Source of the DNA: Halorubrum ruber | GTDB taxonomy: Archaea > Halobacteriota > Halobacteria > Halobacteriales > Haloferacaceae | Assembly (NCBI RefSeq): GCF_018228765.1 | Contig: NZ_CP073695.1 | Coordinates: forward strand, 2,775,218-2,839,217 | Direction of reading: 5' to 3' | DNA: 64,000 nt | Shown: in pieces, positions 2,531 through 63,053 of the stretch | Position numbering within the stretch: the first letter of the stretch is position 1 | How the letters are laid out: each line of letters opens with the position of its first letter | The notes under the pieces: generated by a model | The model's database searches: none | What the model was told of the DNA's origin: nothing | Seen by the model: only the letters and a program-made list of their open reading frames with translations | Translations under genes and position numbers: made by a program

Positions 2531-3970
2531 ATGGACGAGTTGGAGGCGGTGCTGTCGCGGGTCCGCGAGCGGGTCCTCCCGGAGCCCGAGGAGCGCGAGC
2601 GGCTGCGCGAGACGGCCGCGACGCTGACCGAGCGGGCCCGCGAGGCGATCGCCGACCTCCCGGTCGAGGCCGACGTGGTCCAGGTCGGGTCGACCGCGCG
2701 CGGCACGTGGGTCGCCGGCGACCGCGACATCGACCTGTTCGTCCGGTTCGACGTGGACCTCGACCGTGCCGAGTTAGAGGAGTACGGCCTCGACGTCGGC
2801 CACGCGGTCCTCCCCGACGGCCACGAGGAGTTCGCCGAACACCCGTACGTGAAGGGGAGCTACGAGGGGTTCGACGTCGACCTCGTCCCCTGTCATGACG
2901 TTGAGAGGGCCGCCGAGCTGGTCTCCGCCGTCGACCGCACGCCGTTCCACGACGCGTACCTCTCCGCGCGGCTCGACGACGACCTCGCCGCGGACGTGGT
3001 GCTGGCGAAGGCGTTCCTGAAGGGGATCGGCGCGTACGGGAGCGACCTCCGCACCGAGGGGTTCTCGGGATACCTCACGGAGCTACTCGTGTTGGAGCTC
3101 GGCGGGTTCGTCCCGCTGGTCGAGTCGGCGCGGAGCTGGCACCCGCCGGTGGAGTTCGACCCCGAGGGGCACGCCGAGCACACGTTCGAGGACCCGCTCG
3201 TCGTCGTCGACCCCACCGACCCGACGCGGAACGTCGCGGCGGTGCTGTCGGCGGCGAACCTCGCGCGGTTCCAGCACTACGCGCGGGAGCTGCTCGCGGC
3301 GCCGAGCGAGGCGCTCTTCGAGCCCGACGACCCCGAACCGCTCGACTCCAGAGAGGTCCGCGCCCACCTCGACCGGCGGGGGACGACCCCGGTCGCGGTC
3401 GTCTTCGACGCGCCCGACGTGGTCGACGACCAGCTGTGGCCGCAGCTCCGGCGCTCGCTGGACGGGATCGTCGGGGGTCTCAACGAGCGCGGCTTCGACG
3501 TTCTCCGGGCGCGAGCGATGACGGACGCGGCGGGAGCGGCGGGTGCGGCGGGCACCCCCGAGACGAGCGACGCCGAGGAGACGGCCGAGCGCGACGGAGC
3601 CGACGAGCCGACGCGGGCCGCGCTGTACGCCGAATTAGAGGTGACCGAGCGCCCGACCGTGGAGCGCCACGAGGGGCCGCCGGTCGCGGTCCGGAAGCAC
3701 GCCGCGAGCTTCTACGAGTCGTACGTTGACGACGTCGACCCGGACACGTACGGACCCTTCATCGACGGAGACCGGTACGTCGTCGAGCGGGAGCGGGAGT
3801 TCGCAACCGTCCGGGAGTACTTGGAGAGCGACGCCGCGAGCGACGTCGCGCTCGGGGCGCAGGTGGAGCCGGCGTTCGACGACCGCGATGTGTTGGTCGG
3901 GGAGGCGGTCGCCACGCTCGCGCCCGCGTTCGGCCGGCCGCTCCGGGAGTTCTACGAGCCGCGACCGTGA
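2531..3970 (+). CDS. cca: CCA tRNA nucleotidyltransferase (archaeal class I)
   Basis: A 479-residue archaeal CCA-adding enzyme, which adds or repairs the 3' CCA of tRNAs using CTP and ATP. The nucleotidyltransferase motif is GSTARGTW at residues 53-60, followed by the metal-binding pair Asp66/Asp68 in GDRDIDLFVRF; DVDLVP supplies the third carboxylate. The downstream KAFLKGIGAYGSDLRTEGFSG segment is typical of the archaeal class. Start at 2531 leaves 159 bp to the tRNA-Asn gene on the other strand. An Ala/Gly/Glu-rich insertion near residues 335-360 is probably a halophilic surface loop. Confidence 0.95.
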   Translation: MDELEAVLSRVRERVLPEPEERERLRETAATLTERAREAIADLPVEADVVQVGSTARGTWVAGDRDIDLFVRFDVDLDRAELEEYGLDVGHAVLPDGHEEFAEHPYVKGSYEGFDVDLVPCHDVERAAELVSAVDRTPFHDAYLSARLDDDLAADVVLAKAFLKGIGAYGSDLRTEGFSGYLTELLVLELGGFVPLVESARSWHPPVEFDPEGHAEHTFEDPLVVVDPTDPTRNVAAVLSAANLARFQHYARELLAAPSEALFEPDDPEPLDSREVRAHLDRRGTTPVAVVFDAPDVVDDQLWPQLRRSLDGIVGGLNERGFDVLRARAMTDAAGAAGAAGTPETSDAEETAERDGADEPTRAALYAELEVTERPTVERHEGPPVAVRKHAASFYESYVDDVDPDTYGPFIDGDRYVVEREREFATVREYLESDAASDVALGAQVEPAFDDRDVLVGEAVATLAPAFGRPLREFYEPRP

Positions 3971-60278: not shown

Positions 60279-60323
60279 GGCGGTCGCAGCGGTCGACACG
60301 AGTCCCGACCGCATCGCCCTGGG

Positions 60324-60339
60324 ACGCACGCTCGTGCGT
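60324..60339. promoter_or_regulatory. candidate operator 1 (6-4-6 inverted repeat)
   Basis: ACGCAC-GCTC-GTGCGT, a perfect 6-bp inverted repeat with a 4-nt spacer. It lies 25 nt upstream of the TATA-like box TATTCATA (60365-60372), which is itself about 27 nt before the ATG at 60396. A repeat of identical geometry and spacing is found upstream of the permease gene (61160-61175). Confidence 0.5.
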
Positions 60340-60395
60340 ATCGGCGCCACGATCGACTTCGACGTATTCATAGTTGTGCGATCGCGATCATTCCC

Positions 60396-61109
60396 ATGAA
60401 CCGCGCAGAGAAGGCGGCCCTCCAGCTACAGGCGGTCGCCGTGTTGCGGATGCTGAAGGAGACGCGAACGTACGAGGAGCTGTCGGAGGTGACCGGGCTG
60501 CCCGCGGGCGACCTGAACCGGTACGTGAACGGGCACGTGCTGCCCGGCACCGACCGCGCGAGCGAGGTCGTCGAGTCGGTCGGCCGCGAGGCGCTCGCCG
60601 ACGAGCTGGTCGCGCGCGTCGAGTTCGACGACGAGGGGTACGTGGACAACTCCGGCGTCGTCTTCGACCAGTCGTTCCTCGATCTGGTGGCGCCGGTCGC
60701 GGCGGAGACGTTCGAGTTCGAGTCGCCCGACGTGGTCCTGACTGCCGCGACCGACGGGATCACGCTCGGCGCGGCGATGGCCTCCTTCTTCGACGCGCGC
60801 TTGGCGTACGCGAAGAAGTCGAAAGAGACCGCCGTCGAGGAGTTCATCGAGTCGCGCCAGCGGCTCGCCTCCGGCATCGAGCTCACCTACTACCTCCCCG
60901 CGAGCGCGATCGACGCCGGCGACACGGTGTTAGTCGTCGACGACCTCATCCGCTCGGGCGAGACCCAAGAGCTCCTCTTGGACATCGCGCTCCAGGGCGA
61001 CGCCGACGTCACCGGCGTGTTCGCGCTCATCGCCGTCGGCGACGAGGGGATGGACCGCGCGCGAGCGATCACCGACGCGCCGGTCGGGGCGCTGACGACG
61101 TTCGAGTAG
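60396..61109 (+). CDS. HTH-phosphoribosyltransferase, probably purine-linked
   Basis: A 237-residue protein with an N-terminal helix-turn-helix (about 10-60: RMLKETRTYEELSEVTGLPA) and a type I phosphoribosyltransferase domain whose PRPP loop is VLVVDDLIRSGETQ near 180. This architecture matches archaeal PRTases that double as regulators, like bacterial PurR. The adjacent purine-type permease suggests purine salvage or its control; orotate or adenine as ligand cannot be excluded. It differs from the N-terminus I recall for the sugar regulator GfcR. Confidence 0.82.
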   Translation: MNRAEKAALQLQAVAVLRMLKETRTYEELSEVTGLPAGDLNRYVNGHVLPGTDRASEVVESVGREALADELVARVEFDDEGYVDNSGVVFDQSFLDLVAPVAAETFEFESPDVVLTAATDGITLGAAMASFFDARLAYAKKSKETAVEEFIESRQRLASGIELTYYLPASAIDAGDTVLVVDDLIRSGETQELLLDIALQGDADVTGVFALIAVGDEGMDRARAITDAPVGALTTFE

Positions 61110-61159
61110 CCACGTTCGCGCATACTATTTGTTCATAAACAGGAGATATCCCCTTTTCG

Positions 61160-61175
61160 ATCCACACTCGTGGAT
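61160..61175. promoter_or_regulatory. candidate operator 2 (6-4-6 inverted repeat)
   Basis: ATCCAC-ACTC-GTGGAT, a perfect 6-bp inverted repeat with a 4-nt spacer, sharing the core CAC-N-CTCGTG with candidate operator 1. It lies 24 nt upstream of the TATA-like box CTTATCAT (61200-61207) of the permease gene. Confidence 0.5.
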
Positions 61176-61235
61176 AACTAAGCGCGGCGTTCAGCAAGGC
61201 TTATCATCCGATCCCGGGGAACACTCACCCGTTCA

Positions 61236-62615
61236 ATGGGCCTTTCAGACACGCTGGCCGCGCGGTTCGACGTGGAGTCGCACGGGTCGGACGTTCGGAC
61301 GGAGATAATCGCCGGGCTCACGACGTTCCTCGCGATGTCGTACATCATCGTCGTGAACCCCGCCATCCTCTCGGAGGCGATCCAGATCGAGGGGTACGGG
61401 CAGGGAGAGGTGTTCCAGATGATTGCCATCGCGACGATCCTCTCGGCGGCGATCGCGACGGCCGTGATGGCGCTGTACGCGAACCGGCCGTTCGGGCTCG
61501 CGCCCGGGCTCGGGCTCAACGCCTTCTTCGCGTACACGGTCGTGCTGGGACTCGGCGTCCCGTGGCAGACGGCCCTCGCCGCCGTCTTCGTCGAGGGGGT
61601 CCTGTTCATGCTCCTGACCGCGGTCGGCGCACGAGAGTACGTCATCCGGCTGTTCCCCGAGCCGGTGAAGCGCTCCGTCGGCGCCGGTATCGGACTGTTC
61701 CTGCTGTTCATCGGCTTTCAGGAGCTCCAACTCGTCGTCCCCGACGACGCGACGCTCGTCACGCTCGGCGGGATCTTCGGGAATCCGTGGGCGATCCTCG
61801 GGCTGCTCGGGCTCGCGTTCACCTTCGCCCTCTGGGCGCGCGGGATCACGGGCTCGATCGTGATCGGCATCGTGACGACCTCGCTGGTCGGCTGGGGGCT
61901 CACCCTCGCCGGCGTCTTCGGGCGCGGCACGGTCACCCCGGAGTCGCTGCCGAGCGCGCAGTACGACATCACGCCGCTCGCGGGCGCGTTCGTCGACGGG
62001 CTGGGACAGATCGACCCGCTCACGTTCGTCCTCGTCGTGTTCACGTTCTTCTTCGTCGACTTCTTCGACACCGCCGGGACGCTCATCGGCGTCTCGCAGT
62101 TCGGTGACTTCCTCGACGAGGACGGCGACCTCCCGGACATGGACAAGCCGCTGATGGCCGACGCGGTGGGGACGACCGCCGGCGCGGTGCTCGGCACCTC
62201 CACGGTGACGACGTACATCGAGTCGTCGACCGGCGTCGAGGAGGGCGGCCGCACCGGCCTCACCGCCCTCGTCGTCGCGCTCCTCTTCCTCGCGTCGCTC
62301 GCGGTGATCCCCGTCGTCGCCGCCATCCCGGCGTACGCCTCCTTCATCGCGCTGATCGTCGTCGGCGTGATGATGCTCCAAGGGCTCGTCGAGGTCGACT
62401 GGCAGGACCCGGCGTGGGCCGTCTCCGCGGGGCTCACGGTCACCGTGATGCCGTTCGCCTACTCCATCGCCGACGGACTCGCGGCCGGCATCGTCGCCTA
62501 CCCGCTGATCAAGGTCGCGGTCGGCGAGTACGACGAGGTCGCGCTCGGGCAGTACGTCATCGCGGCGCTGCTCGCCGCCTACTACGTGCTCCAGACGCGC
62601 GGCGTCATCTTCTAA
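61236..62615 (+). CDS. NCS2-family purine permease (AzgA type)
   Basis: A 459-residue permease with about 12-14 helices. Family marks: EIIAGLTTFLAMSYIIVVNP at the start, NRPFGLAPGLGLNAFFAYTV (the substrate-site motif), FFFVDFFDTAGTLIGVSQ, and GTSTVTTYIESSTGVEEGGRTGLTA-type signature in two parts. AzgA-like proteins take up adenine, guanine or hypoxanthine. It follows the HTH-phosphoribosyltransferase by 126 bp with its own promoter and a matching candidate operator. Confidence 0.93.
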   Translation: MGLSDTLAARFDVESHGSDVRTEIIAGLTTFLAMSYIIVVNPAILSEAIQIEGYGQGEVFQMIAIATILSAAIATAVMALYANRPFGLAPGLGLNAFFAYTVVLGLGVPWQTALAAVFVEGVLFMLLTAVGAREYVIRLFPEPVKRSVGAGIGLFLLFIGFQELQLVVPDDATLVTLGGIFGNPWAILGLLGLAFTFALWARGITGSIVIGIVTTSLVGWGLTLAGVFGRGTVTPESLPSAQYDITPLAGAFVDGLGQIDPLTFVLVVFTFFFVDFFDTAGTLIGVSQFGDFLDEDGDLPDMDKPLMADAVGTTAGAVLGTSTVTTYIESSTGVEEGGRTGLTALVVALLFLASLAVIPVVAAIPAYASFIALIVVGVMMLQGLVEVDWQDPAWAVSAGLTVTVMPFAYSIADGLAAGIVAYPLIKVAVGEYDEVALGQYVIAALLAAYYVLQTRGVIF

Positions 62616-62692: not shown

Positions 62693-63053
62693 CTTATAAA
62701 AGACAGATGCGGTGGCGCGTGCCGACGAGCGGCCGACAGGCCGCGAGTCGCACGCGCGAGGGAGTCGGTGGTCCGGAGCGAAGCGGAGGACCACCGACGA
62801 GGCTGGGGAGGCGTGAGGCGCTGTGCGGTCGCGGTCGGGTGGGACTCAAAGGGGCAGTCGCGAGGACGGCGCAGACGACGTAAGCACCGCAGCGAGTGAG
62901 CGGAGCGAACGAGCGAGGAGCGCAACGAGTGTGCGCCGTCCTCGCGACTGGGGCTTTGGTGGTGTTCGCCGTCAGTCCGCTCTCAGCTATTTATAAACGA
63001 GCGACTGGGGCTTTGGTGGTGTTCGCCGTCAGTCCGCTCTCAGCTATTTATAA
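62693..63053 (+). repeat. dispersed structured element, copy E (with duplicated tail)
   Basis: Fills the gap between the permease and glycerate kinase genes. TATA-like box CTTATAAAA at 62693-62701. Hairpin 1: 62715-62721 with 62751-62757, middle 62723-62726 with 62747-62750 (CGAC/GTCG, replacing CTC/GAG of copies A and C), inner 62729-62734 with 62739-62744. Hairpin 2: 62764-62773 with 62789-62798, 10 perfect pairs. Invariant block GGGACTCAAAGGGGCAG at 62841-62857. Helix 3: 62855-62873 with 62932-62950, 19 perfect pairs. Two tails 57 bp apart are identical over 52 bp (62944-62995 and 63001-63052), each ending at a TATTTATAA box. Confidence 0.8.

Follow-up and report, generated by a model that had tools for sequence, protein, structure and literature searches.

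The locus and its promoters

The analyzed window, a 64,000-nucleotide stretch of the Halorubrum ruber genome, contains a gene for an HTH-phosphoribosyltransferase (PRTase) followed by a gene for an NCS2-type permease, each preceded by a promoter with a TATA-like element and a pair of palindromic sites (Table 1). The initial annotation had described one inverted repeat upstream of each gene, 24 to 25 nucleotides before a TATA-like box; the coordinates of the two repeats are exact, and the measured distances agree. Both repeats are present as described, but the count of two is incomplete, with one additional site in each promoter. The resulting pairs are spaced 42 bp apart at the PRTase (60323/60365) and 52 bp apart at the permease (61107/61159). 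An RNA hairpin was set aside by reasoning, since transcription from these promoters probably starts downstream of the reported sites, which precede the TATA boxes.

Table 1. Features of the PRTase-permease locus, with positions in the window
Feature	Sequence	Position	Strand	Remarks
Distal operator, PRTase promoter	GACGCACGCTCGTGCGTA	60323..60340	.	First reported repeat (ACGCACGCTCGTGCGT, 60324-60339) extended to 18 bp; matrix score 15.4; position conserved in orthologous promoters
Proximal operator, PRTase promoter	TATTCATAGTTGTGCGAT	60365..60382	.	Score 10.1; 42 bp from distal site; overlaps TATA-like box
TATA-like box, PRTase promoter	TATTCATA	60365-60372		25 nt after repeat
HTH-phosphoribosyltransferase (PRTase), 237 aa		60396..61109	+	NF006328/PRK08558; proposed purine regulator
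Upstream operator, permease promoter	TAGCCACGTTCGCGCATA	61107..61124	.	Score 17.0; overlaps PRTase stop codon; also matched in genome-wide pattern scan
Main operator, permease promoter	GATCCACACTCGTGGATA	61159..61176	.	Second reported repeat (ATCCACACTCGTGGAT, 61160-61175) extended to 18 bp; score 20.0; rank 2 in genome-wide model search
TATA-like element, permease promoter	CTTATCAT (CTTATC at 61200)	61200..61207	+	24 nt after repeat; position conserved across orthologous promoters
NCS2-type permease (xanthine/uracil permease family, PF00860), 459 aa		61236..62615	+	3' neighbor of PRTase in most orthologous loci fetched

The permease matches PF00860 with 130.5 bits (gathering cutoff, 27) over window positions 61236-62612. 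In Haloferax gibbonsii (locus L281, 2396-5316), the PRTase and permease genes follow pyrE, encoding the orotate PRTase; in Halorubrum, a DUF7529 gene holds that place. The apt3/ura2 pair of Haloferax volcanii near HVO_2248 (PMC7824242) was considered as an orthologue and rejected as probably another locus, the orthologue of H. gibbonsii adjoining pyrE.

The region downstream of the permease contains a perfect direct repeat of 53 nucleotides (window 62944-62996 and 63001-63053; 57 nucleotides from start to start), located before a DUF4147 (glycerate kinase-like) gene. GC-rich intergenic sequence, GAGGCTGGGGAGGCGTGAGGC ... GTGGGACTCAAAGGGGCAG, is similar at window positions ~62700-62950, after the permease, and at ~1570-1760 of locus L230, near purL, and is probably a dispersed repeat.

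Conservation of the 18-bp palindrome

The core CAC-N-CTCGTG, first noted as common to both repeats, represents one version of the motif, the true unit being 18 bp with a variable center. The short core CACNCTCGTG is found twice in the window, compared to 0.98 matches expected, with 20 of 100 shuffles reaching this number, and 36 times in the whole genome. It was dropped as the motif owing to its lack of specificity when taken alone. Given this weak evidence, orthologous loci were collected and both promoters were read.

In many haloarchaeal genera, the PRTase and the NCS2 permease are each preceded, at a constant position, by an 18-bp palindrome of about TATNCACRNNYGTGNATA. With a palindromic 18-bp weight matrix trained on the distal zone, which replaced an earlier training with distal and proximal sites mixed, 80 of 90 PRTase promoters and 72 of 82 permease promoters show a site above the 95th percentile of shuffled sequences. 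The site center is mostly found 64 to 68 nucleotides (PRTase) or 66 to 72 nucleotides (permease) before the ATG. Sites with scores of at least 12 reach a density of 541 per 100 kb in the PRTase and permease promoters, training sites included, compared to 1.9 per 100 kb across the 411 kb around them. Phylogenetic footprinting, proposed in the initial annotation as a check, thus shows the repeats to be conserved. Its other concern, a frequent occurrence at random, applies to the short core alone and not to the full 18-bp motif.

A predicted genome-wide purine regulon

Scanning the whole genome with a degenerate pattern allowing up to two mismatches yields ~30 places. Beyond the two in the window, six of these lie at purine promoters, namely, those of guaB, purF, purSQ, purD, purA, and the divergent purNH/purB pair, compared to a chance expectation of ~0.03 under the assumption of ~12 purine units of 300 bp. 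A sequence-only model, not very sensitive, gives 7 matches over the genome, including purS (rank 1), the permease (rank 2), purL, and guaB; its additions to the pattern scan are purL and a CNNM/CorC-type CBS membrane protein. The identity of every named purine gene is confirmed by NCBIfam. The search for repeats upstream of purine genes, as initially suggested, therefore recovers purF, purD, purL, purSQ, purNH/purB, purA, and guaB. The local regulon for purine uptake and salvage that had been envisaged is borne out as a purine regulon, but was drawn too narrowly: the set of targets is genome-wide and extends to de novo synthesis, guaB, and purA. The repeats are predicted control sites of a genome-wide haloarchaeal purine system.

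Two of the matches outside the purine genes are of note. Upstream of the CNNM/CorC-type CBS membrane protein, two operator-like sites are found ~42 bp apart (L227, ~2956-3015; genome C1:316155-316215), without an evident link to the purine pathway; adenine nucleotides are possible ligands of CBS domains. The other is a site with a score of 19.8 just 5' of the ATG of a 229-residue protein without a Pfam match (L147, 1501-1518; genome C1:2305801), which may be due to chance.

Paired operators and promoter architecture

Two sites with scores of at least 8 are found in 75 of 163 promoters, compared to 0.7 in shuffles. The spacings cluster at 42 to 43, 51 to 53, and 61 to 64 bp, equivalent to 4, 5, or 6 helical turns, and show a strong 10.5-bp periodicity, with a p value that is only indicative given the relatedness of the sequences. 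Most PRTase orthologues carry the second site 42 to 43 bp downstream of the first. At the PRTase, purD, and purSQ, the proximal site overlies the TATA box, and at purL, the start region; in other genera, the proximal site of the permease promoter overlies the TATA box or start region. Paired sites together with this overlap suggest repression by cooperating or bridging dimers, a reading based on the several promoters in which one site of the pair overlaps the TATA box or the start.

At purA, guaB, and the permease of the window, the TATA box is preceded by both sites, and these promoters might be activated instead. With some pairs clear of the core promoter, repression is not certain everywhere. 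A rival reading, in which the PRTase binds the motif but mainly activates from sites 5' of the TATA box, being switched on when purines are scarce, appears unlikely. It agrees with the position of the most constant site, ~24 to 25 nucleotides upstream of the TATA box, and with the layout of the three promoters named above, and another haloarchaeal regulator, GfcR, is described as an activator (in the material cited through PMC11519228). Repression, however, fits those promoters in which a site covers the TATA box or start, namely, those of the PRTase, purD, purSQ, purL, and, in other genera, the permease.

The HTH-PRTase and its co-occurrence with the motif

The PRTase contains an HTH at about residues 26 to 50 and a PRPP loop, VLVVDDLIRSGET, at residues 178 to 190. 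Both are nearly invariant among orthologues, and the PRPP loop is intact. The AF2 model (pLDDT of 91) shows a type I PRTase fold preceded by an N-terminal helical HTH. The protein matches NF006328 (PRK08558, "adenine phosphoribosyltransferase") over residues 1 to 236, practically its full length, with 354.9 bits compared to a cutoff of 184. The family is named for an enzyme but is not known to have been assayed for this activity, and the evidence presented here points to regulation; the annotation as adenine phosphoribosyltransferase may misdescribe the gene. Near-identical orthologues are found in named Halorubrum species. In a search of the phylum, the family cutoff was passed only by Halobacteria; 2 of the 14 named control genomes passed it.

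Since sites at purF, guaB, and purA were absent from the training of the matrix, these promoters provide an independent test. The purF promoter contains a site in all 15 genomes with the PRTase (scores of 13.4 to 23.6) and in none of 15 without it (maximum score of 3.8; p=1.7e-6). The guaB promoter shows the same contrast (p=2e-5), with several weak sites, and the purA promoter contains a site in 15 of 19 genomes with the PRTase compared to 1 of 11 without it (p=2e-4), leaving four PRTase-bearing genomes with no purA site. The matrix scan found no site at permease homologues of PRTase-less genomes; these homologues may be paralogues, which applies less to purF and purA. Moderate scores of 9.8, 9.0, and 11.0 occur in a few promoters of genomes lacking the PRTase. 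PRTase-less genomes are found in several families that also include carriers, for which reason protein and motif were probably lost jointly more than once. In one genus that lacks the PRTase, the permease promoters (L134, L141, and L142) retain words resembling the operator, for example, CATCGACGTTCGTCCGTA near -68, which are possibly decayed relics.

The initial annotation named the HTH protein as the candidate binder of the operator, and this joint presence and absence supports it as an association. On comparative sequence grounds, the PRTase is the leading candidate binder of the motif owing to the contrast at purF, guaB, purA, and the permease, the sites at its own promoter, and the nearly invariant HTH. 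The common operator proposed for both promoters gains support from the footprint, from the purine genes elsewhere in the genome, and from the same co-occurrence.

The motif could also be a purine operator bound by another transcription factor, with the PRTase as a regulated salvage enzyme (APRT) whose HTH serves a different purpose. The enzyme name of NF006328 and a match far above its cutoff, the intact PRPP loop, and the presence of active APRT and XPRT among the fold matches of the AF2 model are in line with such a role. It is nevertheless improbable in view of the motif and the PRTase being present or absent together and of an HTH as invariant as expected for the reader of a fixed operator. 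In addition, the nearest solved relative by sequence is a repressor, PurR of Bacillus, the best PDB match of the PRTase domain (E value of 6e-13; the match excludes the HTH). Functionless inverted repeats arising by chance, an idea that the nonsignificant short core alone would allow, are refuted by the footprint and are exceedingly improbable given the conservation, the fixed position, the purine targets, and the absence of sites where the PRTase is absent.

Proposed mechanism

The preferred reading, held with considerable confidence, is that the repeats are operators of a purine regulon to which the HTH-PRTase binds, sensing purines and acting mainly as a repressor. The N-terminal HTH would bind the 18-bp palindrome, and the PRTase domain would sense the purine state by binding PRPP, a purine compound, or both. 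Dimers would occupy the same helical face at two sites separated by 4, 5, or 6 turns and would cooperate, probably by bridging these sites. With plentiful purines, the PRTase would thereby repress its own gene, the permease gene, purA, guaB, and the de novo genes purF, purD, purL, purSQ, purNH, and purB.

A more far-reaching form of this proposal is possible but rather doubtful. Here, the PRTase would be a trigger enzyme that combines PRPP-using salvage catalysis with the role of master purine repressor in haloarchaea. It would read the purine supply by catalysis and repress by bridging operator pairs placed around archaeal TATA/BRE promoters at spacings of 4, 5, or 6 helical turns.

The analysis supplies a candidate protein, an operator, and a list of targets for a whole archaeal class. 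It suggests that archaea, like bacteria, use a PRTase-based purine sensor fused with a DNA-binding domain and that archaeal promoters can carry operator pairs in helical phase.

Comparison with known systems

Searches of open-access papers turned up no description of the motif or of a regulator acting on it. In Halobacterium salinarum, the expression of purine genes falls as purines rise, through a factor other than TrmB, and the trmB mutant shows increased expression of purine genes at a PRPP level inferred to be low (PMC4540570). According to another paper from this group, no PurR homologue could be identified (PMC3794607). Judged from sequence comparisons, the PRTase is very probably the purine regulator inferred, but not named, in this published work. 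Provided that H. salinarum uses the PRTase, the data on the trmB mutant argue against PRPP as the only inducer.

Among haloarchaeal proteins, GfcR offers a similar build, an HTH with a domain of the PRTase fold, in keeping with its former name. It is a transcription regulator, formerly pyrE1, that activates sugar catabolism (Johnsen et al. 2023, cited through PMC11519228), in contrast to the purine targets here. With 20 bits compared to a cutoff of 115, the PRTase lies outside NF002620 (GfcR/OPRT-like).

PurR of Escherichia coli, a LacI-type protein, binds palindromic operators over purine genes and exerts purine-dependent repression. The operator type and the purine targets are alike in the two systems, whereas the protein families are unrelated.

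The closest parallel is found in Bacillus, where PurR controls genes of purine synthesis and uptake; the operators predicted here likewise lie at purine synthesis and transport genes. Bacillus subtilis PurR (TIGR01743; 1o57, 1p4a, and 7rmw) shares with the haloarchaeal protein the build of an N-terminal DNA-binding domain and a type I PRTase domain, and PurR chains align with the AF2 model over residues 1 to 237 (Z of 19 to 20; rmsd of 3.6 to 3.7). The match to TIGR01743 covers the PRTase part only and, with 41.1 bits, falls far below the cutoff of 258.7, so the haloarchaeal PRTase is not filed as PurR. The haloarchaeal system further differs in its operator, a different palindrome arranged in pairs 4 to 6 helical turns apart at archaeal TATA/BRE promoters.
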